Part shown: piece after piece, positions 48,008 to 63,439 of the stretch
How the letters are laid out: every line of letters begins with the position of its first letter
Position numbering within the stretch: position 1 is the stretch's first letter
Assembly (NCBI RefSeq): GCF_030848565.1
Contig: NZ_JAVDDV010000003.1
Span: 186,001-250,000 of the forward strand
DNA length: 64,000 nucleotides
Origin: Natronolimnohabitans sp. A-GB9
GTDB lineage: Archaea; Halobacteriota; Halobacteria; Halobacteriales; Natrialbaceae
Direction: 5' to 3'
Program-made: the position numbers and the translations under genes
The notes under the pieces: generated by a model
Seen by the model: only the letters and a program-made list of their open reading frames with translations
Database searches by the model: none
Told to the model about the DNA's origin: nothing

Positions 48008-48661
48008 ATGAGGAAGTCATTCGACTCGGTGTACCACCGACGAGCAATTCTGGGATCGATCGGAGCGGGAGCCGCAGTTGGCCTTGCCGGCTGTCTCGGT
48101 GGCGACGACGAGAACGGTGAGGAAAACGGCGATGAAAATGGCGATGAAAACGGTGAAGAGAACGGTGAAGAGAACGGCGACGAAAACGGCGACGAAAACG
48201 GCGAGGAGACAGCGTCGCTCGAGGAACCGGCTGAATTCCCGGAGGGACGTGACTGTGCGGTCTGTAGCATGGAAGCGGGCGACTACCCCGACTGGAACGC
48301 CCAGCTCGTCCACGAGGACGAACACCGCGAGTTCTTCTGCTCGGCAGGCTGTATGGCGGCGTACTACGCCGCACCGGAGGAGTTCGACGGGTCCGATGCA
48401 GCGGTCGAAGGCGTCTGGGTCACCGATTTCGAAACGGGAGAGTTGATCGACGGGACGGAGGCGTACTACGTCCGGGTAACCGATCCGGACCACGTCGACG
48501 ACATCATGATGCGCAACCCCACGCCGTTCGCTGAGCGGTCCGATGCCGAAGCGTTCGTCGACGAGTTCGACGAGTACGACGACGAGGACATCATCACACT
48601 CGAGGACTTCGACCGCGACCTCGCCGAACTGTACCGCAGTCGGTTCTTCGAGGAAGACTGA
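48008..48661 (+). CDS. NosL-domain lipoprotein with ENG-repeat linker
   Basis: 217 aa. Tat-like N-terminus (HRRAILGSIGAGAAVG) with lipobox LAGC (C29), so a probable membrane-anchored lipoprotein. A low-complexity linker of ENGD/ENGE tetrads (about residues 35-66, from 12-bp tandem repeats at 48110-48205) precedes a NosL domain: CAVCSMEAGDY (C83, C86, M88) and FFCSAGCM (C111, C115). NosL binds Cu(I) and serves NosZ; here it may carry copper or a related metal. C-terminal tail ends ELYRSRFFEED, like the paralogues. Box CGATTTATCCG is about 27 nt upstream, so leaderless. Confidence 0.85.
   Translation: MRKSFDSVYHRRAILGSIGAGAAVGLAGCLGGDDENGEENGDENGDENGEENGEENGDENGDENGEETASLEEPAEFPEGRDCAVCSMEAGDYPDWNAQLVHEDEHREFFCSAGCMAAYYAAPEEFDGSDAAVEGVWVTDFETGELIDGTEAYYVRVTDPDHVDDIMMRNPTPFAERSDAEAFVDEFDEYDDEDIITLEDFDRDLAELYRSRFFEED
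48110..48205 (+). repeat. 12-bp tandem repeat coding the (E/D)ENG linker
   Basis: About eight units of GANGANAACGGY give the acidic repeat in the lipoprotein linker; unit number may vary between strains. Confidence 0.75.
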
Positions 48662-48753
48662 GACGGGTTGCGTAACTGTTGCAGTAACTCGCTTCCAGGA
48701 CGGCCGCGGCCCGGTCGCGGCCCTGTCGCACTGACAAACCGCAGTCCGTCTGA
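48659..48753. repeat. Palindromic repeat at the lipoprotein stop
   Basis: From the TGA stop (TGAGACGGGTTGCG) to CGCAGTCCGTCTGA. Inner stem GGACGGCCGCGGCC / GGTCGCGGCCCTGTC. Confidence 0.65.
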
Positions 48754-48965
48754 GATGGACCCCCTGGCCGATCTCTCGATTGCCTGACCCGACACCGGAT
48801 TGTGGATTCGTCGACACTGGCCGACAGCAGACCTCCAGTGTTCCTCGACCGGGCTGTCTCGTTGCATCGAACGATCACGGCACTCGAGAATTGCACCAGA
48901 CGCTACTTTCGTGTGCAATTCTTACGGTCGACCATCGCCCCTCACATCGATTTCGAACGATAGCA

Positions 48966-49817
48966 ATGACGATACCTCTGTCTTCGCCGGCTCTCGACTC
49001 CGTGCTGCTCGAACAGTGTTATGACCCGTCGCTCGATCCAGCGGTGATGGAACCGGTGAGTCTCGTCGTCTTCGGGCTGATCGGACTGTTGGGTGGGGCT
49101 CACTGTCTCGGAATGTGTGGCCCGCTCGTGACGACGTACTCGGATCGAATGCGCCAGCAAAACGACGGCTCGACGCGACGCAACGAGTTGAGCCTCGGTA
49201 TGGTCCGCCAGCACGCGCTGTTTAACCTCGGCCGAGCGGGAAGTTACGCGCTTCTCGGTGGGCTGTTCGGCTTTGTGGGCTCGCTCGTGTTCGTCACGTC
49301 ACAGTCGGTGACGGCCGTCATGACCGACGTACACGCGATCGCCGGGATCGGCGTCGGCCTCGCAATCATCGTGATGGGACTGTCCTATCTGTCCGGCCGC
49401 GGCTTACTCGGCGGGTCGGTCACGATCCCCGTCCTCGAGTCGGCGCTCAGTCACATCCAACAGCGGCTGCTCCGAAACGTCGACAACTGGGTCGGCAACA
49501 GCAAGATCGTCGGACTCGGCGCAGCCCACGGGCTGTTACCCTGTCCGCTGCTCTATCCGGCGTTTCTGTACGCGTTCGTCCAGGGATCGGCACTCGAAGG
49601 GTTCCTCGCGTTGGGCATTCTCGGTCTCGGAACCGTCCCGTCGTTGTTCATCTACGGGACGCTCTTCCAGTCGCTCAGCGTCGAGACGCGAGCGAAACTC
49701 CACCGCGTCCTCGGCGTCGCCTTCCTCCTCCTGGGGTACATCCCGCTCCAGCACGGACTGGCGACGCTCGGGATCCACTTGCCTCCGATCCCGCTGCCAC
49801 ACTACCAGCCGCTTTGA
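48966..49817 (+). CDS. TauE/SafE-type membrane protein (COG2836)
   Basis: 283 aa, six or so helices. GAHCLGMCGPLVTTYS (HCxxMCGP) lies in the first helix, and LLPCPLLYPAF is a matching half in the second repeat. In bacteria such proteins accompany copper enzymes such as cbb3 oxidase and Nos maturation and may move thiols, copper or sulfite. Position between two NosL genes supports a metal role. ATG 48966 preferred; the TTCTTACGG box lies about 45 nt upstream. Confidence 0.78.
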   Translation: MTIPLSSPALDSVLLEQCYDPSLDPAVMEPVSLVVFGLIGLLGGAHCLGMCGPLVTTYSDRMRQQNDGSTRRNELSLGMVRQHALFNLGRAGSYALLGGLFGFVGSLVFVTSQSVTAVMTDVHAIAGIGVGLAIIVMGLSYLSGRGLLGGSVTIPVLESALSHIQQRLLRNVDNWVGNSKIVGLGAAHGLLPCPLLYPAFLYAFVQGSALEGFLALGILGLGTVPSLFIYGTLFQSLSVETRAKLHRVLGVAFLLLGYIPLQHGLATLGIHLPPIPLPHYQPL

Positions 49818-49948
49818 TCTCGGTGGCTCACGTTCCGTTTGGCCGTTTATGATCCGTTTCCCACTATTCGTTCGTATCTATCGAATATTGAACTAATTTC
49901 GCTAATCATACCATACTTTATTTGTTATCTGGATTATGACTTTCCGAT

Positions 49949-50554
49949 ATGTCGGTGGAACACCAAAAAGATCCGGAGCTAGATCCACGATGGGCGACAC
50001 GACGGTCGATGCTCGCCGGTGTCGGTACGACCTGTGCGATGGCACTGGCGGGCTGTCTCGGAAGTGACGACGGGCTTCCGGAGCCGATCGCGATCGAAGA
50101 CGATCACAACTGCCCGCTGTGTAATATGGTCGTCGTCAACCATCCGGGCCCGGCCGGCCACGCGTATTTTCCCGACGACGCGGACGTCCGAGAACAGGAC
50201 GGCGTCGTTCCGTACTGTGCGAGTACGTGCGCCTACGAACACTACTTCGAGCAGAAGGAACTCGACGAGGAACCGACCGTGATCTACTTGACCGACTACT
50301 CGAGGGTCGACTGGGACGTGTACGAAGAAGACGAGTCGAAGTTTATCACGGCACATCTCGAGGCCGACGACCACACCGATGCGCGTGAACTCACGTACGT
50401 TGTCGACAGCGAGGTGCTGGGAGCGATGGGCGAGTCGATAATCGGCTTTTCGGACCCCGACGATGCCGATGCCTTCGCCGACGAGTACGGCGGTGAGATT
50501 CACGATCACGATTCACTCAATCGAGAGCTGGTCGAGAGCCTCGGATTCGTATGA
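49949..50554 (+). CDS. NosL-domain lipoprotein
   Basis: 201 aa. Twin-arginine region ATRRSMLAGVG, lipobox LAGC (C36), then NosL: CPLCNM (C55, C58, M60) and PYCASTC (C90, C94). The later half (AHLEADDHTDARELTYVVDSEVLGAMGESIIGFSDPDDADAFADEYGGE) keeps the NosL PF-x-D-x-x-D-A-x-A-F pattern. It lacks the YRxR tail of the larger paralogues. Close to canonical single-domain NosL. A NosD-like gene starts 70 nt downstream. Confidence 0.88.
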   Translation: MSVEHQKDPELDPRWATRRSMLAGVGTTCAMALAGCLGSDDGLPEPIAIEDDHNCPLCNMVVVNHPGPAGHAYFPDDADVREQDGVVPYCASTCAYEHYFEQKELDEEPTVIYLTDYSRVDWDVYEEDESKFITAHLEADDHTDARELTYVVDSEVLGAMGESIIGFSDPDDADAFADEYGGEIHDHDSLNRELVESLGFV

Positions 50555-50624
50555 TCGGGGCGGCACCGAGACGACGTCCCCGGCACCGACCACTGGGTGA
50601 CGACGCCAACGAGGTCAATACAGC

Positions 50625-52544
50625 ATGCGCACCTACTACACGACTGTTCTGGTAGCGATCACGATCGTCGCCGTCCTCTGTGGTGTCGGTCTGTTTGCCG
50701 TCGACACTGGCTCGACGGCACCCGAACCGGTGTCGTTCAACGAGACGGTTTCGATGGGCGTCGACTTCGACGACGACCTCGAGGATGCCGACGCCGTCGA
50801 CCTGCCGAAAACGCAGGTGTTTTACTCCCAGTACGAGTTCGTCGTCGGCTACCACGGCGTCGAACGGTTCGTCCACGCACGGGAGCAAGCCGGCCACCAA
50901 CAGCGGTTCGGCTACCCACTTGCAGTGTACGTAACCGACTTCAGCGACACGGACGTCGAGCTGACCGAAGAGGGGTATCCGACCGCGAACGAACCGACCG
51001 GCTGGACCGATGCCGAGTCGGCCGCGTTCGTCGTCGACAGTGACGCTCGAAATCCTGCCGGTGAGACGGTCGTACCGTTCGCAGATCGCGACGATGCTGA
51101 GGCGTTTACTGCCGAGTACGGCGGCACCGTCCTCACCTGGGATGAACTCGTGGAGCGTGAGTTCTCCTTCGACGACGCGGCGGCTGTCAAAGACCGCGTC
51201 GACGACCGACTCCGAGACGGGGACGCGCTCGTCGACGACCGACGGACGATGCTCGATCGTCCCGAAGAGACCGTCGTCGACGACGGCGAGACGGTTCAGG
51301 AAGCGATAGACGATGCACCGTCGAATACGACCGTCGTCGTCCCGGAGGGGACCTACGAAGAGACAGTCGAGATCGACCGACCGATCACCCTCTCCGGCGA
51401 GGGAGCCGTCACGCTCGATGGCGGTGGTGACGGCACGGTCGTCGAGATCGGCGCCGACGAGGCAGCCGTTCGAAACGTCGATATCACCGGCGTTGGAAAC
51501 ACGACCCGTCCCGAAGAGCAAGAGACCGTCAGCGACACGGATAGTGGTGATACCGTCCTCGAGATGGCCTACGCAGGCGGTGACGCCGGAGTCAGGATCG
51601 ACGGTGCCGAACGGGCACTGGTCGAAAACGTGACGATCGAGACGCCGGCAAACGGTGTTATGCTCCGTGATAGCCCCGAGTCGGTGGTCCGGAACGTCTC
51701 AGTCGACGGTGGCGACGACTGGGGCGATGCGTACATGGGCGTCATGTCGATGCGATCCGGCGACGGCGTCATCGAGGACTCGACGTTCCGGGACGGCCGT
51801 GATGGGATCTACACCCATCGCTCGGACGGACTCGTCTTCCGAAACAACACTCTCGAGCGAAACCGAATCGGCGTCCACCTGATGTATACTGCCCAGACCG
51901 TCATCGCCGACAACGAAGTGCTGAACGCGGAGGCGACGGGAGTTCACGTGATGACGAATCCCCACGGGAACGCGGTCGTGGGCAACGAGATTCGAAACAG
52001 TCCGGACGGACTACGAACCGAGGGCTGGAACTCCTACGTCGCCGATAACGTCGTCGTCGACAACGGGCTCGGGATGACGACTGAAGCTGGCAACTCGATC
52101 TACGAGGGCAACGTCGTGGCCGGCAACGACGTCGGGATCCAGGCGAGTCACATTCTCCCGACCAACCGCGTCATCGGCAACGATTTCGTCGACAACGACC
52201 GCCATGCAACCGCGCGGGCGGGCACGCTCCGGATCTGGACGCGAAACGATGCGGGGAACTACTGGCACGGCGCGATCGGCGACGCCGACGGCGACGTCCT
52301 CGAGCGTCCGTACTCGCCGACCGAGGACGTCGACGGTTCCCTCCATCGCACCGACGGTGCCTCCTCACTCGCTCGTTCGCCACTCCACGGCGCATTGACC
52401 GATCTCGCGGGCACTGTCTCCGGGATGCGCGATGCGAGCATCGTCGATACGGCGCCCCGCTGTGAGCCGGCGAACCCGGAGCAGTTCGACGCGATCGAGT
52501 GGAACCCACCTGAACGCGACTGTGGGCCGATCGCGCCGGCGTAG
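50625..52544 (+). CDS. NosD-like beta-helix protein with N-terminal NosL-like domain
   Basis: 639 aa, N-terminal membrane/signal helix (VLVAITIVAVLCGVGLFAV). Residues 50-200 resemble NosL (FYSQYEFVVGYHG, AFVVDSDARNPAGETVVPFADRDDAEAF) but without the CxxCxM cysteines. From about 215 a parallel beta-helix of NosD/CASH type: NTTVVVPEGTYEETVEID, DGIYTHRSDGLVFRNNTLERNRIGVHLMYT, VVGNEIRNSPDGL, YEGNVVAGNDVG. NosD acts in periplasmic NosZ copper-centre assembly. The fusion puts carrier-like and beta-helix parts in one protein. Ends CEPANPE...RDCGPIAPA. Confidence 0.85.
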   Translation: MRTYYTTVLVAITIVAVLCGVGLFAVDTGSTAPEPVSFNETVSMGVDFDDDLEDADAVDLPKTQVFYSQYEFVVGYHGVERFVHAREQAGHQQRFGYPLAVYVTDFSDTDVELTEEGYPTANEPTGWTDAESAAFVVDSDARNPAGETVVPFADRDDAEAFTAEYGGTVLTWDELVEREFSFDDAAAVKDRVDDRLRDGDALVDDRRTMLDRPEETVVDDGETVQEAIDDAPSNTTVVVPEGTYEETVEIDRPITLSGEGAVTLDGGGDGTVVEIGADEAAVRNVDITGVGNTTRPEEQETVSDTDSGDTVLEMAYAGGDAGVRIDGAERALVENVTIETPANGVMLRDSPESVVRNVSVDGGDDWGDAYMGVMSMRSGDGVIEDSTFRDGRDGIYTHRSDGLVFRNNTLERNRIGVHLMYTAQTVIADNEVLNAEATGVHVMTNPHGNAVVGNEIRNSPDGLRTEGWNSYVADNVVVDNGLGMTTEAGNSIYEGNVVAGNDVGIQASHILPTNRVIGNDFVDNDRHATARAGTLRIWTRNDAGNYWHGAIGDADGDVLERPYSPTEDVDGSLHRTDGASSLARSPLHGALTDLAGTVSGMRDASIVDTAPRCEPANPEQFDAIEWNPPERDCGPIAPA

Positions 52545-52560
52545 CGTTCGCACGACGTCG

Positions 52561-52992
52561 CTACGACTCCGGCGCTGTCGTGCCCTCGACGGAGAGTTCT
52601 CGCTCGACGGCGCTGTGTACGTCCGGTCCCTCGAGGCCGACGGTGACCGTGTCGGTGACGACGCCAGTTCGTACGTCGGTGAGTGTTATCTCTACGGTAA
52701 CCGGATCCGCGAGTGAAAACGGCGGCGCCGGATCGAACGTGAACGCGCCGGCCTCGAGCGTCGCCACTGTCGCGTCTTCGAGTTGGGTATCGATCGTCAG
52801 CGTCGCCTCCGATTCGGCGACCGGCTCCCACAGTACGTCCCCCTCGAGGACGAGATACGACTCGTCATCGGACGTCTCGACCTCGACGTGGTGACCGACG
52901 CCCGCTCGCGAGACGGCGTCGGCCCCAACCACCAGCGCAGTTGACGATCCGGCCGCGAGCGTCCCGAACAGGCGGCGGCGTGTCAGATCCAT
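52561..52992 (-). CDS. Exported SipW/TasA-type beta protein, small
   Basis: 143 aa from ATG 52992. Signal MDLTRRRLFGTLAAGSSTALVVG is twin-arginine-like; the mature part (HVEVETSDDESYLVLEGDVLW... FTFDPAPPFSLADPVTVEITLTDV) resembles the short beta-sandwich found at the start of the two SipW-type NosL proteins. It has no cysteines. Divergent from the gene at 53228 across 235 nt; may form or cap a surface polymer with those proteins. Confidence 0.6.
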   Translation of the reverse strand: MDLTRRRLFGTLAAGSSTALVVGADAVSRAGVGHHVEVETSDDESYLVLEGDVLWEPVAESEATLTIDTQLEDATVATLEAGAFTFDPAPPFSLADPVTVEITLTDVRTGVVTDTVTVGLEGPDVHSAVERELSVEGTTAPES

Positions 52993-53070
52993 CGTTTTCG
53001 AGTGACCGTTCGCGGTAGCTATGCCGATTCTGGTTCGACGGTCGAACGGTCGTTCGAGATCTATCCGCAA

Positions 53071-53151
53071 TTTCTACAAGTAAACCAGTCCATTCTACGA
53101 ATGCACCACAATTTGTTAATGAAAACAGTTCAACCAAGAGACTATAGCATG
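53071..53151 (+). promoter_or_regulatory. Promoter and upstream frame of the first SipW-type NosL gene
   Basis: TTCTACAAGTA at 53071 and TTGTTAATGAAAACAGTTCA at 53113-53132; similar blocks, TTCTACAAGTA and TTGTTAATTAATACAGTTCA, occur at 54952 and 55024-55043 before the second such gene. The TTAAT box is about 31 nt before ATG 53149, which opens a 25-codon frame ending one base before the real start. Confidence 0.45.
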
Positions 53152-53227
53152 CCGATACGAGGTGCCCAGCCGACGACCACGTACCGACGGCCAGAGAACT
53201 GCGGGTGCGCGGACGGAAGAAGGTAGC

Positions 53228-54790
53228 ATGGACCGACGGAAGTTCCTGCTGGGTTCGACGGCTGCCGGCGCCGGACTGCTGTTCGGATCGGGCGCGTTTA
53301 GCGCGGCTGGTGTCGGCCACGACGTCTCGATCGAGACGGGAAACGGGTACCTACACGTCGAGCCGAACCCCGACTACGAGGGGAACGCGGTCTCGTACGT
53401 CGACGACTCGGACGATCCGCTCGAGCTCACTATCGACGACCTCGCCGAACACGGCTGGGTCCGGTTCGACGACTTGCTTTTGCTCACGAACACGGGGACA
53501 CAGCCCGTCAGCGTCTACGTCGAGGACCAGGACTGGCTCGGCGACGACACGGACGCCGTCCTCGATTACCGTCTCGAGGACCGTTCGATCGTCGGTGAAG
53601 AAAACGCCGTCGAACTCGACGGGGTGGGAGGGGAGGGAAACAGCGTGACGATCACGATCCGGGCTGATGCGACCGACCACGACGACCTCGAGCACGCGCT
53701 TCCGGAACCCGAAGACGGCGAAGATCACACAGTGATGTTCGTCGCCGAGATCGTCTCCAACGTCGCTGACGGCGAGTCGATCGGTCTCGACCTCGAGGCG
53801 ACCGAGACGATCACTCCCCGCGAGATCGCCGAGGTCACAGCAACGGTCTACAATCGTGACAACACCCCTCGCTCGGGTATCGTGGCTCTCGACCTCGAAG
53901 AGCACGTTCATCCCGGGGAGGGACTGGATCTCGACCTCGAAGCCGACGTCGGCAACGTTCCGGAGATAGACTTGACGGGTGAAGACGGTGACGTGGCGTA
54001 TAGCTATCTCGATCGTGGCGACTATCCACAGGGTCTTCGCTCCTCGGAGGTGACCGTCGACGCGGTCGAACGTGAAACTGTCTCGTTCGAGATTCCTGTT
54101 GCATACCGAAACCTCGAGATCGGAGACCTGCAGTTAGACGAGAACCGTCTCGAGATCACGGCGGAGTTCGGTGAGGAGACCGTCACTGAGGAAGAGACCG
54201 TCATTATCGAGGACTCGACGACGGAGTGGTTCCAGCCGGACAATGGAAAGCAATGTCCTGTCTGCAACATGGCGACGGAGATGTACAACGGGTGGCACGC
54301 GATGGTTACCCACGGCGACGGAAGCCGAATCGAGTTCTGTTCGATCGGCTGTGCCGTCGCCTACTGGGTGTATCCGGTCCACTTCGCCGAGGAGGTCTCC
54401 GACCGTTCGACGACGTACTACGGAATCCACCCGGGTACGGACTCCGAGGACCTCGTGACGATGTGGGCGCCCGACTTCACCGACATGGACCCAAGTGACG
54501 GACTGAGCTGGGGTGACGACCCTCATCCCGGCTACAAGCGGTTCATCGATATGCGTGAGGGGTATTTCGTCCTCGACGACGAGACTGCGACGAAGTACTG
54601 GACGCCGATGGGTGGCGGCAGTCCAGTCTGTTTCGCCGCGTACGACGACGCGCTCGCGTACGTCGATGGCAGTCTCGAGACCTTGCCCGACGACGTCGAC
54701 GTGAGCAACGTCACCGAGGACGACATCGTCACCCTCGACGATTTCGACCACGACATCGCAACGACGTATCGAGGTCGGTTCGTTCCCTGA
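53228..54790 (+). CDS. SipW-type secreted protein with C-terminal NosL domain
   Basis: 520 aa. Signal MDRRKFLLGSTAAGAGLLFG / SGAFSAAGVGHD is the RRxFL...GAFS pattern of SipW/TasA-like archaeal proteins. A beta domain (about 30-190), a linker/Ig-like module starting TITPREIAEVTATV (about 200-330), then NosL: C343, C346, M348 (CPVCNM), C371 and C375 (FCSIGC), TPMGGGSPVC (M461, C468), and tail TTYRGRFVP. The metal ligands C, M and H (WHAMVTH) are intact. Probably a surface-anchored or polymer-forming NosL carrier. Heads its own unit; the next paralogue starts 350 nt later. Confidence 0.8.
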   Translation: MDRRKFLLGSTAAGAGLLFGSGAFSAAGVGHDVSIETGNGYLHVEPNPDYEGNAVSYVDDSDDPLELTIDDLAEHGWVRFDDLLLLTNTGTQPVSVYVEDQDWLGDDTDAVLDYRLEDRSIVGEENAVELDGVGGEGNSVTITIRADATDHDDLEHALPEPEDGEDHTVMFVAEIVSNVADGESIGLDLEATETITPREIAEVTATVYNRDNTPRSGIVALDLEEHVHPGEGLDLDLEADVGNVPEIDLTGEDGDVAYSYLDRGDYPQGLRSSEVTVDAVERETVSFEIPVAYRNLEIGDLQLDENRLEITAEFGEETVTEEETVIIEDSTTEWFQPDNGKQCPVCNMATEMYNGWHAMVTHGDGSRIEFCSIGCAVAYWVYPVHFAEEVSDRSTTYYGIHPGTDSEDLVTMWAPDFTDMDPSDGLSWGDDPHPGYKRFIDMREGYFVLDDETATKYWTPMGGGSPVCFAAYDDALAYVDGSLETLPDDVDVSNVTEDDIVTLDDFDHDIATTYRGRFVP

Positions 54791-55140
54791 CCGTCAGTGC
54801 GCACCTGGTCGACCGCAGGGAGCGCGGGTCGAGACACCCACCGGAGCGCCCCGCGAACTGGCGAGGGGGGACCGACGTGACCCGCGAGCCCGGCGATCGG
54901 TGTGGGAACAGGTTCAGTTGGCAGTATAGATCCCATCGAGCGGTTCGATGGTTCTACAAGTAGTTGTACTACCAAAAAATAATATATTAACACAAAATAT
55001 ACTTTCTAGAACCATACCAGAAGTTGTTAATTAATACAGTTCAGAAATACAACTGGACATGATGGTCCAAACACACCCACGGGAACGGTGGGATCGGGAC
55101 GTACCGACACGCGACTGCGGGACGAACAGGGTGACTCCGC
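54791..55140 (+). promoter_or_regulatory. Intergenic leader of the second SipW-type NosL gene
   Basis: 350 nt. The first 110 nt are GC-rich without a gene; then comes an AT-rich promoter with TTGTTAATTAATACAGTTCA (55024-55043) about 30 nt before ATG 55059/55062. That opens a 30-codon frame (MVQTHPRERWDRDV...) ending at 55154, overlapping the 55141 start. Confidence 0.45.
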
Positions 55141-56958
55141 ATGGAACGGCGTAACTTTTTGCTCGGGTCGACGGCTGCCGGCGCGGGAATCCTGTTCGGA
55201 ACGGGGGCGTTCAGCGCGGCTGGTGTCAGCCACGGCGTCTCGATCGAGACGGGAGACGGATACCTTCACGTCGATCCCAATCCCGACTACGAGGGGAACG
55301 CGGGCACGTACGTCGACGACTCGGATGGTCCGCTCGAGCTCACCATCGACGACCTCGGTGAACACGGCTGGGTCCGGTTCGACGATTTGCTCCGTGTGAC
55401 GAACACAGGAACACAGCCGGTCAGCGTCTACGTCGAACCCCAAGACTGGCTGGGTGACGATGCCGACGCCGTCCTCGATTATCGGTACGACGGCGACTCG
55501 ATCGTCGGCGAAGACAATGATGTCGAGATCGAAGACGTTCGCGGTGACAACAGCCTGGCAGTCACGGTCCGTGCCGACGCGACTGGTCACGACGACCTCG
55601 AGGACGTCCTCCCGGACACGGACGCGGACGCAGGGTCACACACCGTCACGTTCGTCGCCGAGGCAGAAGAGCCAAGCGGCGGTGGTCTCCGACTCGAGAC
55701 GACGATCCCAGGGCAGGTCGAACTGGACGAGGAGGCGACTCTCGAGGTCGAACTCGAAAACCTGGGCAACGAAGCGGACGAGTCGGCGGTCACCGTCACC
55801 ATCGACGACGAGACGGAGTACGACGAAGACGTAACTGTCGATGCCGATGCCACGTGGACGGGGTCGTTCGAGTTCGACACAGGCGAGGAGGGGACGGTCG
55901 ACTGGAAGGTCGAAACCGACGCGGACGACGCAAGCGGCACGCTCGAGATCAAAGGGGAGATCGAAGAGTTGGTCGACGTCGAGGTCACCGACACGATCAC
56001 CCCACGCGAGGTCGCGGAGGTCACGGCGACGGTCACAAACGACGCCGACGAACAGCGTTCGGGGACCGTCACCCTCGACGTCGACCAGCGACTCCACCCC
56101 GGCGACGGGCTGGACGTCGACCTCGAGGCCGACGTCGATTCGTACCCGGAACAGAGCTACGCGGCGGGCGATCCGGACTACCACTACATCGATCGCGGCG
56201 AGTACCCACAGGACCTCCTCGAACAGGACGTCACCGTCGACGCCGGCGACAGCGAGACGGTGACCTTCGACGTGCCGGCAGCCTACAAGAACCTCGAGTT
56301 GGGCGATCTCAAACTCAAAGAGAACGACCTCGAGGTGACGGTCGATCTCGACGGTGAAACGGATCGCGACGATGACACCCTGACGATCGAGGACGCGACG
56401 GTCGAGTTCTTCCAGCCCGACGACGACAAGTGGTGTCCGGTCTGTAACATGGCGACCGAACAGTACGAGGCCTGGCACGCGATTATCTCCCACGAGGACG
56501 GGAGCCGCCCCGAGTTCTGTTCGACGGGTTGTGCCGTCCAGTACTGGGTCAAACCCGGCTGGTTCTTCGAGAACATGCGAGACGACACGTACCGTGGCAT
56601 GACCCCGGCCACCGAAGAAGACTTGGTGACGATGTGGGCGCCCGACTTCACCGACGTCTCGGGTGAGGACTTGGACGAACATCCGGGCTACGAGGCGTTC
56701 ATCGACCTGCGGGATGGCTACATCGTCCTCGACGGCGACACCGTCTCGAAGTTTTCGACGCCGATGGGTGGCGGCAGCCCGGTCTGTTTCGCGGACTACG
56801 ACGACGCGGTCGACTACGTCAACGGCGACCTCGAGAACCTGCCCGAGGACGTCGACATGAGCAACGTCACCGAGGACGACATCGTCACGCTCGAGGAGTT
56901 AGACGAGGACAACACTGCAGTCTACGACGGCTCCGGTCGGATCACGTGGCGGGGGTGA
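55141..56958 (+). CDS. SipW-type secreted protein with extra module and NosL domain
   Basis: 605 aa, closest paralogue of the gene at 53228. Signal MERRNFLLGSTAAGAGILFGT then GAFSAAGVSHG; beta domain 30-185; an extra Ig-like/CARDB-type module at about 185-280 (TTIPGQVELDEEATLEVEL) not present in the first paralogue; a second such module from about 283 (TITPREVAEVTATV); NosL with C432, C435, M437, C460, C464 and TPMGGGSPVC; ending YDGSGRITWRG. First gene of a probable six-gene operon to 63.4 kb (gaps 55-85 nt). Confidence 0.82.
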   Translation: MERRNFLLGSTAAGAGILFGTGAFSAAGVSHGVSIETGDGYLHVDPNPDYEGNAGTYVDDSDGPLELTIDDLGEHGWVRFDDLLRVTNTGTQPVSVYVEPQDWLGDDADAVLDYRYDGDSIVGEDNDVEIEDVRGDNSLAVTVRADATGHDDLEDVLPDTDADAGSHTVTFVAEAEEPSGGGLRLETTIPGQVELDEEATLEVELENLGNEADESAVTVTIDDETEYDEDVTVDADATWTGSFEFDTGEEGTVDWKVETDADDASGTLEIKGEIEELVDVEVTDTITPREVAEVTATVTNDADEQRSGTVTLDVDQRLHPGDGLDVDLEADVDSYPEQSYAAGDPDYHYIDRGEYPQDLLEQDVTVDAGDSETVTFDVPAAYKNLELGDLKLKENDLEVTVDLDGETDRDDDTLTIEDATVEFFQPDDDKWCPVCNMATEQYEAWHAIISHEDGSRPEFCSTGCAVQYWVKPGWFFENMRDDTYRGMTPATEEDLVTMWAPDFTDVSGEDLDEHPGYEAFIDLRDGYIVLDGDTVSKFSTPMGGGSPVCFADYDDAVDYVNGDLENLPEDVDMSNVTEDDIVTLEELDEDNTAVYDGSGRITWRG

Positions 56959-57042
56959 CCTCGCGCAGACGTGGCTGCCCGACTCGACGGCCCGGTGTCG
57001 TCGATCGGGCGAGTACCTGGAAAATAACGTATTTGATGTGAT

Positions 57043-58116
57043 ATGAACCGACGAACGTTCATTCGCGACAGCAGTATCGTCTTCACGCTCGCGATTACGG
57101 CCGGCTGCCTCGAGAATGACTCGACGACGGCACTCGAAGAGGACGCAGTGGCGGTCGCCGTCGAGACACCCGATACGATCACCCCACGCGAGGTCGCGGA
57201 GGTCACGGCGACGATCACCAACGATGCCGACGAGCAGTTCTCCGGGACCGTCGGACTCGAGGTCGAGCGGGTCGATCCGGACGTCGATCCCGACGCGTTT
57301 CCCGATCGGGACTTCGAGGCGGGCGATCCGGATCGCTTCGGACTCGTCCTCGAGTATCCCGACGACCCGTTCCAGCGAGACGTCACCGTCGATGCCGGCG
57401 ACAGCGAGGACGTCGTCTTCGAGGTCCCGGCCGCGTACAAGAACCTCGAGTTGGGCGGCCTGACGCTCGAAGAGAACACGCTCGAGGTCGCGGTCGACGC
57501 TGGTGGCGAGACCCGCTCGGACGAGGCCGAGTTCACCGTCGAGGATGCGGCGGTCGAATGGTTCCAGCCCGACGGCGACAAGTGGTGTCCGGTCTGTAAC
57601 ATGGCGACCGAACAGTACGAGGCCTGGCACGCGATGGTGACGCATGCCGATGGCAGTCGTCCCGAGTTCTGCTCGACGGGCTGTGCCGTCCAGTACTGGG
57701 TCAACCCGGGCTGGTACATCGACTACAACGAGGACGACAGCACGTACCGCGGGATGCACCCCGGAACCGACCCGGACGATCTGGTGACGATGTGGGCACC
57801 GGACTTCACCGACGTTTCGGGGGCGCAACTGGACCAGCATCCGGGATACGAGGCGTTTATCGACATGCGCGACGGCTATTTCGTCCTCGACGACGACACC
57901 GTCTCGAAGTTTTCGACGCCGATGGGTGGTGGCAGCCCCGTCTGTTTTGCCGACTACGACGACGCCCTCGCCTACGTCGACGGCGACCTCGAGAACCTGC
58001 CCGACGACGTCGATATGGACAACGTCAGCGAGGACGATATCGTCGAACTCGAGGGACTCACCCAAGCGAACGTCGCGGTCTACGATGGAATGGGGAGGTT
58101 TTCGTGGCGCGACTGA
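57043..58116 (+). CDS. NosL-domain lipoprotein with Ig-like module
   Basis: 357 aa. Lipobox TAGC at about C23 (AITAGCLEN). One Ig-like module beginning TITPREVAEVTATITNDADEQ (nearly identical at DNA level to the second module at 55990), then NosL: C182, C185, M187, C210, C214 (CPVCNMATEQYEAWHAM, FCSTGC) and TPMGGGSPVC, tail YDGMGRFSWRD. It lacks the SipW-type beta domain, so it looks like the C-terminal part of the preceding protein with a lipoprotein signal. Confidence 0.85.
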   Translation: MNRRTFIRDSSIVFTLAITAGCLENDSTTALEEDAVAVAVETPDTITPREVAEVTATITNDADEQFSGTVGLEVERVDPDVDPDAFPDRDFEAGDPDRFGLVLEYPDDPFQRDVTVDAGDSEDVVFEVPAAYKNLELGGLTLEENTLEVAVDAGGETRSDEAEFTVEDAAVEWFQPDGDKWCPVCNMATEQYEAWHAMVTHADGSRPEFCSTGCAVQYWVNPGWYIDYNEDDSTYRGMHPGTDPDDLVTMWAPDFTDVSGAQLDQHPGYEAFIDMRDGYFVLDDDTVSKFSTPMGGGSPVCFADYDDALAYVDGDLENLPDDVDMDNVSEDDIVELEGLTQANVAVYDGMGRFSWRD

Positions 58117-58171
58117 CGGCAGTAGACGACGGTGTAGACGGCAAACTGACGATCGATAGAGTACGAAAGAC

Positions 58172-59107
58172 ATGAACAGGCGAGCGTTCATCACGAGCAG
58201 TGGGATCGCACTCGCGGTCGCCGTTTCCGGCTGTCTCGGGGATATCGAGGGGAGCATCGCGGTCGACGAACAGCCGGACGGAGTGACCGTTCGGGACGAG
58301 ATCGACTTTACCGTCACCGTAGCAAACGACGACGAAAGCGATCACGAGGTAGACGTTACGGCCGACGTAAGCGGAGAGCAGCGAACTGAGTCGGTCGCCG
58401 TCCCCGCCGAAGACAGCGAAACGGTCACCGTCACCGTTCCGACCGGCTATGAGGAGGTCGAGACCGGCGGGATCAGCTTCGGCGAAAACGAGTGGACCGT
58501 CGAGGCCGACTCGATTCAGGGGGCGGAGAGCGGAACGCTCTCGGTGGCCGACGCAGTGGTTGAGTGGTATCAGCCGGACAGCGAGAAGGTCTGTCCCGTC
58601 TGTAACATGTTGACCGAGGAGTACGAACCCTGGGCCGCCCAGGGGACTCACTCGGATGGCAGTCGAATCGAGTTCTGTTCGATCGGCTGTGCCGTCGAGT
58701 ACTGGATCACGCCCCGCTACGCGTCGAACGAGTACGATGGGAAACACGAGGAGACAGTCGAGGACGAACTGGTGACGATCTGGGCTCCCGACTTCACCGA
58801 CGTCGACCTCGATCCGGGCGACGGGAGTTCGGCGGCTCATCCAGGCTGGGAGAAGTACATCGACATGCGCGACGGCTACTTCGTCCTCGACAGCCAGACG
58901 TTCCAGAAGTTTACGACACCGATGCCGGGCGGAAGCCCGACCTGCTTTGCCGATTACGACGACGCCCTCGCCTACGTCGACGGCGACCTCGAGAACCTGC
59001 CCGACGACGTCGATATGGACAACGTCAGCGAGGACGACATCGTCGAACTCGAGGGGCTTGCAGCGGCCGATGCGGGCTCACTGTACCGATCGAGGTACCA
59101 GCCATGA
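58172..59107 (+). CDS. NosL-domain lipoprotein, shortest of the tandem set
   Basis: 311 aa. Lipobox VSGC (C20; AVAVSGCLGD). A single short beta module (DEIDFTVTVANDDESDHEV, about 25-115), NosL: C141, C144, M146 (CPVCNMLTEEYEP), C169, C173 (FCSIGC), TPMPGGSPTC, tail LYRSRYQP. About 100 bp at 58957-59055 are almost identical to 57957-58055 in the preceding gene, showing recent duplication or gene conversion. Followed 62 nt later by the signal peptidase. Confidence 0.85.
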   Translation: MNRRAFITSSGIALAVAVSGCLGDIEGSIAVDEQPDGVTVRDEIDFTVTVANDDESDHEVDVTADVSGEQRTESVAVPAEDSETVTVTVPTGYEEVETGGISFGENEWTVEADSIQGAESGTLSVADAVVEWYQPDSEKVCPVCNMLTEEYEPWAAQGTHSDGSRIEFCSIGCAVEYWITPRYASNEYDGKHEETVEDELVTIWAPDFTDVDLDPGDGSSAAHPGWEKYIDMRDGYFVLDSQTFQKFTTPMPGGSPTCFADYDDALAYVDGDLENLPDDVDMDNVSEDDIVELEGLAAADAGSLYRSRYQP

Positions 59108-59169
59108 GCGTCGACGCCGTGACGATCGTTTCGACGTTCGTGTATTCACGATAATATACATAGGAGACT

Positions 59170-60297
59170 ATGGGTTTACAGGGCCTCTCACGGCTGCTTC
59201 GGGTCGTACTGCTCGTGGTAGTCGTAGCCGTCGTCGCCGGTCAACTCCTCGGTCAGCCGATTTTGCTCGGCTACGTCACAAGTGCCAGCATGGAGCCGAC
59301 GATCGAGGCCGGCGACGGCTTCGTCGCCGTCCCGGCGGCCGCCACGGGAGACGCAAACCCAGGGGACGTTGTCGTCTACGAGTCGACCGACGGTGAGCTG
59401 GTGACCCACCGTGTCGTCGACGAGACCGACGAAGGATACGTCACGCGTGGCGATGCGAACCCGGTGACCGATCAGGACCGTGGCGACCCACACGTCACCG
59501 ACGATCGGATCGTCGCGACGGCGCTTCAGGTCGGCGGTACGGTCGTTACGATTCCCGGTCTTGGAACGGGGGCAAGCGAACTCGGCGCCGCAGCCGATAC
59601 CGTAGGCCAGTGGGTGACGTCTGCCACCGACCTCGAGTTCGACGGAACCAGCGGCGTTGCCACCGTCGTGCTCGGGCTCTCGCTCGTTGGCTACGCGGTC
59701 GAGACCGTCCGCGATCGCCGTCGCGGTACCCGTCCGAGCCGGGGTGACGACGTCGGGATCGCTCCGCGTCGCCTGGCCGTCGTGTTCGCGCTCTTCGTCG
59801 TCGTCGTCGCGTCGGCGGCGATGCTCGTCCCCGCAGGCACGGAGTCGCTGACGGTCGTCAGCTCCGATCCGGCCCCCGATGGCGAGCTGATAACCGAACC
59901 CGGAGGAACCGCCGAGACGACGTATCGCGTCTCCAACGCCGGGTTCACTCCGGTCGTCACCTACCTCGAGCCGACCGACGGTCTCGCCCTCGAGTGTGAG
60001 TCGGTGGTGGTGTCGGGACGGAGCAGTACGCCTGTCGAGGCCACGCTCGAGGCTCCCGAGTCGACTGGCCACTACGAGCGGACGGTCGACGAACGGCGCT
60101 ATCTACACGTGTTGCCCCGGTCCGTGATCGACGGGCTCTACGATGTCGATCCGTGGCTGCCGTTCGTCGCAATCGTTGCCGTACTCGGCGGGAGTGCGTA
60201 CGCGCTCGGTCGGACACTCGCCGGCTCCGAGCGTGTTCGGACGGCACGAAAACGGGTTCGTTCCCGACGACGGTCCCGATCGTTTCGATTCGACTGA
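59170..60297 (+). CDS. SipW-like signal peptidase I
   Basis: 375 aa, family S26B. Catalytic S40 in SASMEPTIEAGD and H80 in GELVTHRVVDE (His in place of the bacterial Lys, as in archaeal/ER and SipW types); the RGDANPVTDQD region gives the Asp. Membrane segments at about 9-28, 162-180, 199-217 and 325-347, with a beta domain (about 225-320) between the last two, larger than a minimal signal peptidase. Its place among the NosL genes and the RRxFL...GAFS signals of two of them suggest it processes these proteins. Confidence 0.85.
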   Translation: MGLQGLSRLLRVVLLVVVVAVVAGQLLGQPILLGYVTSASMEPTIEAGDGFVAVPAAATGDANPGDVVVYESTDGELVTHRVVDETDEGYVTRGDANPVTDQDRGDPHVTDDRIVATALQVGGTVVTIPGLGTGASELGAAADTVGQWVTSATDLEFDGTSGVATVVLGLSLVGYAVETVRDRRRGTRPSRGDDVGIAPRRLAVVFALFVVVVASAAMLVPAGTESLTVVSSDPAPDGELITEPGGTAETTYRVSNAGFTPVVTYLEPTDGLALECESVVVSGRSSTPVEATLEAPESTGHYERTVDERRYLHVLPRSVIDGLYDVDPWLPFVAIVAVLGGSAYALGRTLAGSERVRTARKRVRSRRRSRSFRFD

Positions 60298-60359
60298 CTA
60301 CAGCCATAATTACGGATGATAGACACCCGACCGACACTCGAGACGAGGAGGCACCGACG

Positions 60360-61475
60360 ATGAACGAGACACACCGACGCCTGCGGGTTCGCCTCTACGA
60401 CCGGCGACTGCTCGCCGTACTGGTTGTCGTCTGTCTGCTGTGTGTCGGCGGCTGGCTGTCGTATACGGCCTACGTCGAGCCCGGCGACCGGACCGAAGAG
60501 CAGACGACCGACTCGTGGACGGTTTCGGGGACGGTCTCCCACGGTGCGACCGTCAGCGAACCGACCCCGATCTACGGCGACGATACCGACTCGGCCGACG
60601 GCGGAACGACCGTCACCGACGAACCGCTGTACTACACCGACGTTGCACCGGCGGCACATGGAGACGTTGCCGTCGCTTACGATGCGGACCGAAGCGACGA
60701 CGTAACCGTCTCTCTCGAACTCGAGCGGGTGATCCGTGCGGTCGGCGACGACGCCGTCTACTGGGAGACGTCCGAACGACTCGAGCGCGTCGATCGAGCG
60801 GACGTCGAGCCCGGCGAAGACGTCGTCGCGACGTTCGAACTGAACGTCACCGACCTCGAGGATCGGACCGACGAGATCGAGACCGAGCTCGGGGCGAGTC
60901 CAGGCGAGACCGAAACCGCCGTCGATGCGACCGTTACCCTCGAGGGCGATGTCGAGGGTGAGTCGGTGTCGATGACGCGGACGTTCCGGATCGACCTCGC
61001 ACTCGAGGGGGCGACCTACAGCATCGACGTCGACGAGCCACTCGAGGAGACCGTTACTGAAACCGAGACGGTGACCGAAACGCGGTCGTACGGGCCACTC
61101 TGGACGGTCGGCGGGCCGCTACTCGTCGTGCTCGGCGCCGTCGGTGTCGGTGCGATCGGTATCGTCCACCATCGGGGGCCACCCACAGAGACCGAACGGG
61201 CGTGGCTCGCCTACCGGGCGGACCGTGCCGAGTTCGAGGACGTAATCATCAGGGCCGACGGCCTCCCGGACGTTGCGGATCGGCCGGTCGTTTCCGTCCC
61301 GTCGCTCGGGGACCTCGCCCGACTCGCAATCGACGTCGATGGGGCCATCCTCGAGGACTCGAGCCGGGACCGATACGTCGTCGAACACGAGGGAAGTACT
61401 TACGTCTACGAGCCGCCCGACGATCCTGCTCGCTCGCGCTCGACCGGCGGGAACGAAGACGTCGACGCCACGTGA
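60360..61475 (+). CDS. DUF5305-family membrane protein
   Basis: 371 aa. N-terminal helix (about 17-38, LLAVLVVVCLLCVGGWLSYTAY), a large extracytoplasmic beta-rich part (DSWTVSGTVSHGATVSEPTPIYG... VEGESVSMTRTFRIDLAL), and a second helix near 242-264 followed by a cytoplasmic acidic domain (WLAYRADRAEFEDVI). DUF5305 proteins often stand beside SipW-like signal peptidases in haloarchaea, so it may aid export or polymer assembly. No cysteines in the outer domain. Confidence 0.8.
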   Translation: MNETHRRLRVRLYDRRLLAVLVVVCLLCVGGWLSYTAYVEPGDRTEEQTTDSWTVSGTVSHGATVSEPTPIYGDDTDSADGGTTVTDEPLYYTDVAPAAHGDVAVAYDADRSDDVTVSLELERVIRAVGDDAVYWETSERLERVDRADVEPGEDVVATFELNVTDLEDRTDEIETELGASPGETETAVDATVTLEGDVEGESVSMTRTFRIDLALEGATYSIDVDEPLEETVTETETVTETRSYGPLWTVGGPLLVVLGAVGVGAIGIVHHRGPPTETERAWLAYRADRAEFEDVIIRADGLPDVADRPVVSVPSLGDLARLAIDVDGAILEDSSRDRYVVEHEGSTYVYEPPDDPARSRSTGGNEDVDAT

Positions 61476-61543
61476 GCGATCGCAGCGAATTCCTTCGATA
61501 CACGAACCAGACGGCCTATTAGCCGATGTGTGCCAGAATCGGT

Positions 61544-63439
61544 ATGCGCAAGAGCGTGCGACTCGGCTGTGTTTTCCTCGTCGCGTTCGTGTTACTCGGC
61601 GGTGCCGGGCTGTTCGTCGCCGACCCGGGGACCTCATCACCCGATCCGGTTCTGTTCGAGGACACCGTCACGATGGGCGTCACGCTCGAGAACGACCCTG
61701 GCGGCGGCGAGATCGACGTACCGAAAGCCCAGGCGTTTTACTCCCAGTACGAGTACGTCGTCGGCTATCGCGGCGTCGAACGGCTCGTCGACCATCACCA
61801 CCAACCCGACCACCGGAGCCAGTTTGGCTATCCGCTTGCGGTCTACGTCACCGACTTCGGTAGCGCCGAGGTCGAACTCACCGAGGACGGGTATCCGACC
61901 GTCGACGGCTCGCTCGAGTGGACCGACGCCGAGTCGGCCACGTTCGTCGTCGACAGCGACGCCCGGACGCCGGCCGGCGAGACGGTCGTGCCGTTTGCCG
62001 ACCGCGACGACGCCGAGCGCTTCGCGTCGGCCCACGGCGGCGACGTCCGCTCGTGGGAGCAACTCCTCGACCGCCAGTTCGACGTCGACGACGCGACGGC
62101 CGTCCGCGACCGCGTCGACGAACGCCACGAGCGGGCAGACGAACAGGTCGCGGCCGCAAGCGACCTGACCGAGCGACCGGCAGCGCTCGTCGTCGGCGAA
62201 GACACCGAGACGATCCAGGCGGCGATCGAGGAGGCGCCCGCGAACACGACGGTCGTCGTCCCCGACGGAACCTACGAGGAGACGATCACGGTCGATCGAC
62301 CGGTGACCGTCGCCGGCGAGGGCAACGCGACGATCCGCGGCGACGAGAACAGTACGGTCGTGACCGTCGAGAGCGACCGGGCCGCCGTCACGGGGGTCCA
62401 CGTCACGGGCGTCGGTGAGACGACGACCACGGAGGGAGACCCAACCGACGACGGCGACGCCCTCGAGATGGCCTACGGACAGGGCGACGCCGGGATCGAG
62501 GTCGACGGTGGGGCCGACGTGGTGATCGAGGACGTGACGATCGACACGGCGGCAAGCGGCGTCTTGCTCAGGGACAGCCCCGAGTTCGTCGTCCGGAACG
62601 TGACCGTCGAGGAAAGCGAACGCGTCGCCGAAGGCTACATGGGCGTCATGACGATCGGATCGCCCGACGGACTCGTCGAAAACTCCCAGTTCAGCGACGG
62701 CCGTGACGGCCTCTACACTCACCGGTCGGACGGCCTCGTCTATCGGGACAACGTCCTCGAGCGAAACCGGATCGGCGTCCACCTCATGTATACGTCGAAC
62801 GTGTTGATCGCCGACAACCGGATCACCGACGCGAGGGCGACCGGCATCGACGTGATGACCAGCCCTGAACACAACGCGGTCGTCGGCAACGAGATCCGTG
62901 GCTCCGATCGGGGACTGCTGATGGCCGGTACCCGATCGTACGTCGCGGACAACCTCATCACCGACACCTCCCTCGGACTGACCGTCGGTGCCGGGGCCTC
63001 GATCTACGAGGGCAACGTCCTCGTCGGCAACGACGACGGGATGCGGGCGACACATCCCCTGCCGACCAACAGCGTCGTCGACAACGATTTCGTCGACAAC
63101 GAGCGACACGCGACGGCCGGAAGCGGCGTCCTCCGGACCTGGTCCGAGGACGGGACCGGCAACTACTGGGAGGGTGCGATCGGCTCGAGTGAGGGCGCGG
63201 TCCTCGACCGGCCGTACTCACCAACCGAGTCGGTCGATCGGAACCTCCACCGCGTCGATGGAACGCCGACGCTCGCCCAGGCGCCGACGACACACGCGAT
63301 CGAAACGGTCGACGACGCGGTTCCCGGAATGCGAGCGGCCAGTATCGTCGATACGGCCCCGCTCTGTGAGCCGGCGAACCCGGATCTGCTCGAGCGAACC
63401 GACGCCGAGTTGCCGGACCGCGACTGTGTGGCGAACTGA
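61544..63439 (+). CDS. NosD-like beta-helix protein with N-terminal NosL-like domain, second copy
   Basis: 631 aa. Signal/TM helix CVFLVAFVLLGGAGLFVA; NosL-like region (FYSQYEYVVGYRG, ATFVVDSDARTPAGETVVPFADRDDAERF) without CxxCxM; beta-helix with TTVVVPDGTYEETITVD, DGLYTHRSDGLVYRDNVLERNRIGVHLMYT, YEGNVLVGNDDG and ending LCEPANPD...RDCVAN. Same architecture and the same order of parts as the 50625 gene, about 11 kb away, so the two are paralogues. Last gene of the NosL/signal-peptidase operon. Confidence 0.85.
   Translation: MRKSVRLGCVFLVAFVLLGGAGLFVADPGTSSPDPVLFEDTVTMGVTLENDPGGGEIDVPKAQAFYSQYEYVVGYRGVERLVDHHHQPDHRSQFGYPLAVYVTDFGSAEVELTEDGYPTVDGSLEWTDAESATFVVDSDARTPAGETVVPFADRDDAERFASAHGGDVRSWEQLLDRQFDVDDATAVRDRVDERHERADEQVAAASDLTERPAALVVGEDTETIQAAIEEAPANTTVVVPDGTYEETITVDRPVTVAGEGNATIRGDENSTVVTVESDRAAVTGVHVTGVGETTTTEGDPTDDGDALEMAYGQGDAGIEVDGGADVVIEDVTIDTAASGVLLRDSPEFVVRNVTVEESERVAEGYMGVMTIGSPDGLVENSQFSDGRDGLYTHRSDGLVYRDNVLERNRIGVHLMYTSNVLIADNRITDARATGIDVMTSPEHNAVVGNEIRGSDRGLLMAGTRSYVADNLITDTSLGLTVGAGASIYEGNVLVGNDDGMRATHPLPTNSVVDNDFVDNERHATAGSGVLRTWSEDGTGNYWEGAIGSSEGAVLDRPYSPTESVDRNLHRVDGTPTLAQAPTTHAIETVDDAVPGMRAASIVDTAPLCEPANPDLLERTDAELPDRDCVAN

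Follow-up and report, generated by a model that had tools for sequence, protein, structure and literature searches.

Two adjacent haloarchaeal genes raise the question of what a NosL metal-carrier domain is doing at the end of a protein that begins like a pilus subunit. The window, i.e. the whole stretch of 64,000 nucleotides that was analysed, is contig C23:186001–250000 of genome G000 (4.3 Mb, 99.95% complete); its relevant features are listed in Table 1. Both open reading frames lie where a preliminary description of this DNA had placed them, and the RR...GAFS-type N-termini reported there are seen as MDRRKFLLGSTAAGAGLLFGSGAFSAAGV in the first protein and MERRNFLLGSTAAGAGILFGTGAFSAAGV in the second, both of the Tat/SipW type. 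For fusion 1, a longer open reading frame from GTG 53162 was rejected, as the alignment favours ATG 53228. Each protein joins a signal and an N-terminal beta domain of the TasA superfamily to an Ig-like middle part and a NosL domain, an architecture that is practically certain. The Ig-like module had been credited to one protein only; the second does have a further module of CARDB type (residues 188–263), but an Ig-like domain lies between the two ends in both.

Table 1 Features of the fusion locus. Coordinates are positions in the window; aa, amino acids.
Feature	Coordinates	Strand	Remarks
NosL lipoprotein (217 aa)	48008..48661	+	Pfam NosL 1.3e-15
NosL lipoprotein (201 aa)	49949..50554	+	Pfam NosL 3.2e-37
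NosL-NosD fusion (639 aa)	50625..52544	+	
Short divergent TafC-like partner (143 aa)	52561..52992	-	Signal and first strand common with the fusions
Fusion 1 (520 aa)	53228..54790	+	Tat/SipW-type signal, TafE-like beta domain, Ig-like spacer, NosL
Fusion 1, residues 1–175	53228..53752	+	Signal and TafE/Tafi-pilin-like domain; NCBIfam TafE 2.3e-22, fold match 9p0a Z 8.4
Fusion 1, residues 178–331	53759..54220	+	Ig-like spacer
Fusion 1, residues 327–510	54206..54757	+	NosL domain with CPVCNM, FCSIGC, MGGGSPVCF
Fusion 2 (605 aa)	55141..56958	+	TafE-like domain, CARDB-type Ig module, second Ig-like module, NosL
Fusion 2, residues 188–263	55702..55929	+	Extra CARDB/Ig module; Pfam CARDB 3.5e-5
Ig-NosL lipoprotein, lipobox AGC	57043..58116	+	Ig-NosL module of the fusions without the TafE domain
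Ig-NosL lipoprotein, lipobox SGC	58172..59107	+	
SipW/archaeal-type signal peptidase	59170..60297	+	S40, H80, D95, D101 and C-terminal extension
DUF5305 protein	60360..61475	+	PF17231 1.5e-54
NosL-NosD fusion (637 aa)	61526..63439	+	

The N-terminal domains are matched by NCBIfam NF052522 (TafE, "fimbrial adapter protein") with E-values of 2e-21 for fusion 1, over model positions 1–163 of 176, and 1.5e-17 for fusion 2. Because the score of the fusion 1 domain (79.6 bits) lies under the curated equivalog cut-off of 155 bits, the domain is called TafE-like, not TafE; the canonical TafE-like proteins of G000 also score under this cut-off (25–67 bits). A model of the full fusion (AlphaFold2, 22 sequences; mean pLDDT 75) has three domains. 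Because matches to the Ig-like middle part took up its Foldseek list, the N-terminal domain was folded alone (AlphaFold2, 39 sequences; mean pLDDT 81). The single significant Foldseek match of this predicted domain is the Tafi pilus of Natrinema sp. J7-2 (PDB 9p0a; 5e-4), which is also the top match in VIA-align (Z 8.4, 126 residues aligned, rmsd 3.4), the likeness in fold being moderate (TM about 0.5); the archaeal bundling pilin AbpA of Pyrobaculum (PDB 7ueg), which the predicted fold likewise resembles, is next among filament proteins (VIA-align Z 6.5). The sequence profile of the domain finds 9p0a as well (E 1e-32). TasA is not among the matches listed for the domain (profile, Foldseek, VIA-align), where missing from the list does not exclude likeness. 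An N-terminal fold unrelated to TasA-like proteins, set beforehand as a result that would refute the preliminary description, is not what the match to 9p0a shows; the closest solved relative is the haloarchaeal Tafi pilin and not TasA or camelysin themselves. The modelled part of 9p0a (188 of 215 residues) suggests that the mature fusion chain would start near AFS. An N-terminal Xaa-Xaa-His copper site was set aside, as a cleavage site placed from 9p0a leaves the histidine several residues in.

At the other end of both proteins the NosL domain is intact, as had been described, in fold as well as in its ligand candidates. Pfam NosL (PF05573) scores 31.7 bits in fusion 1 and 35.2 bits in fusion 2, above the gathering threshold of 24 bits; predicted residues 327–510 of fusion 1 align with NosL 7og7 (Z 13.7, 133 of 134 residues), and the whole-protein profile finds the NosL chains 7osf and 7znq. 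CxxCxM, FCx-GC, the distal methionine and the histidine are kept in 22 of 22 Ig-NosL modules; clade II NosL is reported to have the CXXCXM pattern (PMC6530538). With NosL (7og7, 7osf) the fusions thus share the fold, CxxCxM and the distal methionine; unlike NosL, they have an extra CxxxC pair and are anchored by a pilin-like domain, no lipid-anchor cysteine being found in their first 60 residues. The middle part of fusion 1 (residues 178–331) resembles Ig-like domains of complement C3/C4, factor XIII and CARDB (3idu) with VIA-align Z-scores of 10–11. The TafE-like fold at one end and the NosL fold and ligands at the other support the earlier proposal of an export or surface-type module joined to a metal-carrier domain, and the combination, put forward there as no known described family, is named in no library used.

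Searches of the order (293 genomes) and of the family (125 genomes) gave 13 fusion genes, from 12 genomes that belong to 7 genera and 2 families; with this many homologous genes across these genera, chance fusion is excluded, and the joining of a TafE-like domain to NosL is real and conserved. Outside the order, no fusion was found in a phylum sample of 393 genomes. A contig scan with the 520-aa protein gave no relative; the whole-genome searches did. Two candidates were rejected: the TafE-like match in G332 is a canonical locus without NosL, and the match in G352 is a PQQ-type beta-propeller protein. At L074 8578–11261 (G338), the fusion and the adjoining lipoprotein share one duplicated segment of ~25 residues, which contains an unknown base and is probably an artefact of assembly.

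In all 12 fusion genomes, a TafC-like gene, the fusion and a SipW-type peptidase make up the core of the locus; DUF5305 is found in 8 of the 12 loci, and NosL lipoproteins together with NosL-NosD in 6. The 59170 peptidase scores 66.5 bits against TIGR02228 (cut-off 51.85), and the catalytic S40, H80, D95 and D101 are invariant in 32 of 32 peptidases. In a tree of these 32, the 12 fusion-locus enzymes group on a single branch (100/100) that excludes the 20 canonical ones, most of which come from fusion-bearing genomes; in a tree of N-terminal domains among TafE-like proteins, 12 fusions likewise fall on one branch (100/100). This strict co-inheritance makes it more likely that the fusions would be cleaved by the 59170 enzyme. 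Peptidases of its type (59170–60297) extend ~200 residues beyond the catalytic domain and are conserved there at many positions in canonical and fusion-locus copies; this C-terminal extension is possibly an assembly platform.

A second trait sets these loci apart. GxxH follows AFS in 13 of 13 fusions and in 11 of 12 short TafC-like partners, the twelfth having GxxQ, whereas canonical TafE-like proteins have arginine at the position of the histidine (25 of 25; Fisher p near 1e-13, a descriptive figure from a count with two duplicate rows and related sequences). The site falls in the presumed donor strand, and the simplest reading of these sequences is that GxxH would mark either a docking strand or a peptidase site specific to these loci. 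The N-terminal 50 residues of the short partner match the TafE-like profile (hhalign 8e-10, 50 columns, 36% identity) and its body differs; TafC is weakly matched by 5 of 12 short-partner orthologues (best 1.8e-5). Bacillus TapA has its N-terminal strand in common with TasA (PMC9674648); the fusions and their TafC-like partners parallel this sharing of a strand between subunit and partner.

Among known systems, the TAFi pilus (Natrinema J7-2, 9p0a; NCBIfam TafA, TafC, TafE, TafF) has the N-terminal signal, cleavage region and beta-sandwich in common with the fusions, and the fusion locus shares the TafC-like, SipW-type peptidase and DUF5305 neighbours of canonical loci in the same genome: one on C67 has the same plan (divergent TafC-like gene, TafE-like genes, SipW, DUF5305), and the DUF5305 gene also adjoins SipW in the canonical TAFi-like loci of C34 and C67 (L047, L048). 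In contrast to TAFi, the fusions add Ig spacer(s) and NosL, score under the TafE cut-off and have the R-to-H change in the first strand, and no TafA, the major pilin, is recognised in their locus, a scan of ten window proteins at E up to 0.1 having given no match to it. With TasA-TapA-SipW of Bacillus and with AbpA (7ueg) the operon logic is common, namely a filament protein, a partner and a dedicated SipW; the fusions differ in carrying metal-chaperone cargo, and TasA is not among the sequence matches listed for them.

We read the locus as a derived relative of a haloarchaeal TAFi-type (TasA-superfamily) fimbrial cluster in which a TafE-like subunit bears a C-terminal copper chaperone, and give the mechanism as a whole even chances. 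Most likely the fusion displays a Cu(I) chaperone at the surface and docks by strand complementation; docking, cleavage and copper binding are predicted as follows. Going by the RR motif, the fusion and the short TafC-like protein would be exported by Tat; the co-encoded SipW-type peptidase would remove the signal near GxxAFS, about where modelled 9p0a begins; and the freed N-terminal strand, with its locus-specific GxxH, would complement a partner subunit's beta sandwich. The Ig-like spacer(s) may keep the NosL domain off the membrane, at the S-layer or surface, and CxxCxM and the distal methionine would hold Cu(I). One Ig-NosL module would occur in two anchoring formats, lipid-anchored and pilin-anchored, which probably pass copper to each other, to NosL-NosD and to some exported cuproenzyme that is not N2O reductase; buffering of surface copper would be the alternative to delivery. 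A DsbD_2-type membrane protein lies among the NosL genes at 48966–49817 and is a possible copper/cytochrome maturation partner. Given the lack of a recognised TafA-like major pilin in the locus, a long filament need not form; polymerisation into a short one or into a fibrous layer at the surface, with a Cu(I) chaperone on every subunit, is unlikely.

That same lack would suit a TafE-like domain that no longer assembles and merely offers an alternative surface anchor or spacer to an ordinary NosL chaperone. In the Ig-NosL tree, TafE-fused modules are intermingled with lipid-anchored ones, which requires at least 3 changes of form and indicates that the chaperone module has been exchanged between the two anchoring formats within these loci, and such swaps fit a plain anchor, as do the unrelated cargoes that TafE-like modules bear elsewhere. 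In five loci (L131–L135, from genomes G251, G052, G257, G183 and G223) TafE-like or DUF1102-like N-terminal modules carry other cargo: right-handed beta-helices in L132, L134 and L135, and SNase/lamin-tail (LTD)/DUF4350 in the protein of about 1200 aa in L131. Pfam DUF1102 (PF06510) matches several cargo-bearing TafE-like proteins and two further long proteins; archaeal DUF1102 proteins likewise have a TafE-like module followed by C-terminal cargo, theirs being a beta-helix or SNase/LTD and that of the fusions NosL. NosL thus counts as one among the cargoes of a general surface module. A mere anchor is nevertheless somewhat unlikely, for each fusion retains a neighbouring TafC-like partner and dedicated SipW, and both substrates have an altered first strand (GxxH), and docking by strand complementation is preferred.

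That the NosL domain has become a structural or adhesive head no longer handling copper is quite improbable. Constraint on the C-terminal half looks relaxed in comparisons with G164 of genus g2 (dN/dS ~1.1), and the fusion copy of G318, of the same genus, is frameshifted, as such a head would allow; yet the ratio is 0.08–0.42 in the other pairs, every copper-ligand candidate is kept in all of the modules, and the fusions are co-located with NosL-NosD and NosL lipoproteins. Of the pairs tested, three (G208/G291, G071/G338 and G000/G267) have both halves under purifying selection. Decay of the NosL half seems to be under way in genus g2 (L077 9378–10705, the frameshifted copy; L045 9591–10970, from G164), and NosD, NosL lipoproteins and DUF5305 are missing alongside these copies.

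The enzyme normally served by NosL and NosD is N2O reductase (NosZ). Fusion-bearing genomes are mostly without it, unlike what is usual for NosL: the 11 genomes of the window's family that carry the fusion all lack NosZ, which is present in 40 of 125 family genomes (Fisher p 0.016, ignoring relatedness), and N2O reductase is therefore not the client. NosL and NosD genes do adjoin in half of the loci, but maturation of N2O reductase by this system is scarcely credible with no NosZ in the nearly complete G000 and with the NosZ of G067 on another contig, among nos genes without the fusion; such a client is refuted for these genomes, barring an unrecognised N2O reductase. G000 has 11 NosL domains, ten of them on C23. 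The NosL-rich stretches of this contig are window positions 48008–63439 and, outside the window, C23 166793–170804, with three NosL-NosD-like long open reading frames among the NosL domains.

A NosL system that cannot serve N2O reductase makes the role of NosL and NosD in NosZ-less genomes testable, and the GxxH-for-Arg change common to both substrates of one peptidase clade provides a handle on subunit and peptidase specificity. The recently solved haloarchaeal TAFi fimbriae are linked by these fusions to metal trafficking, and TafE-like (DUF1102-like) domains come to be seen as an exchangeable display module with cargo. Should the fusions polymerise after all, they would form a copper-charged fimbria capturing or relaying copper over the haloarchaeal surface, independent of N2O reductase.
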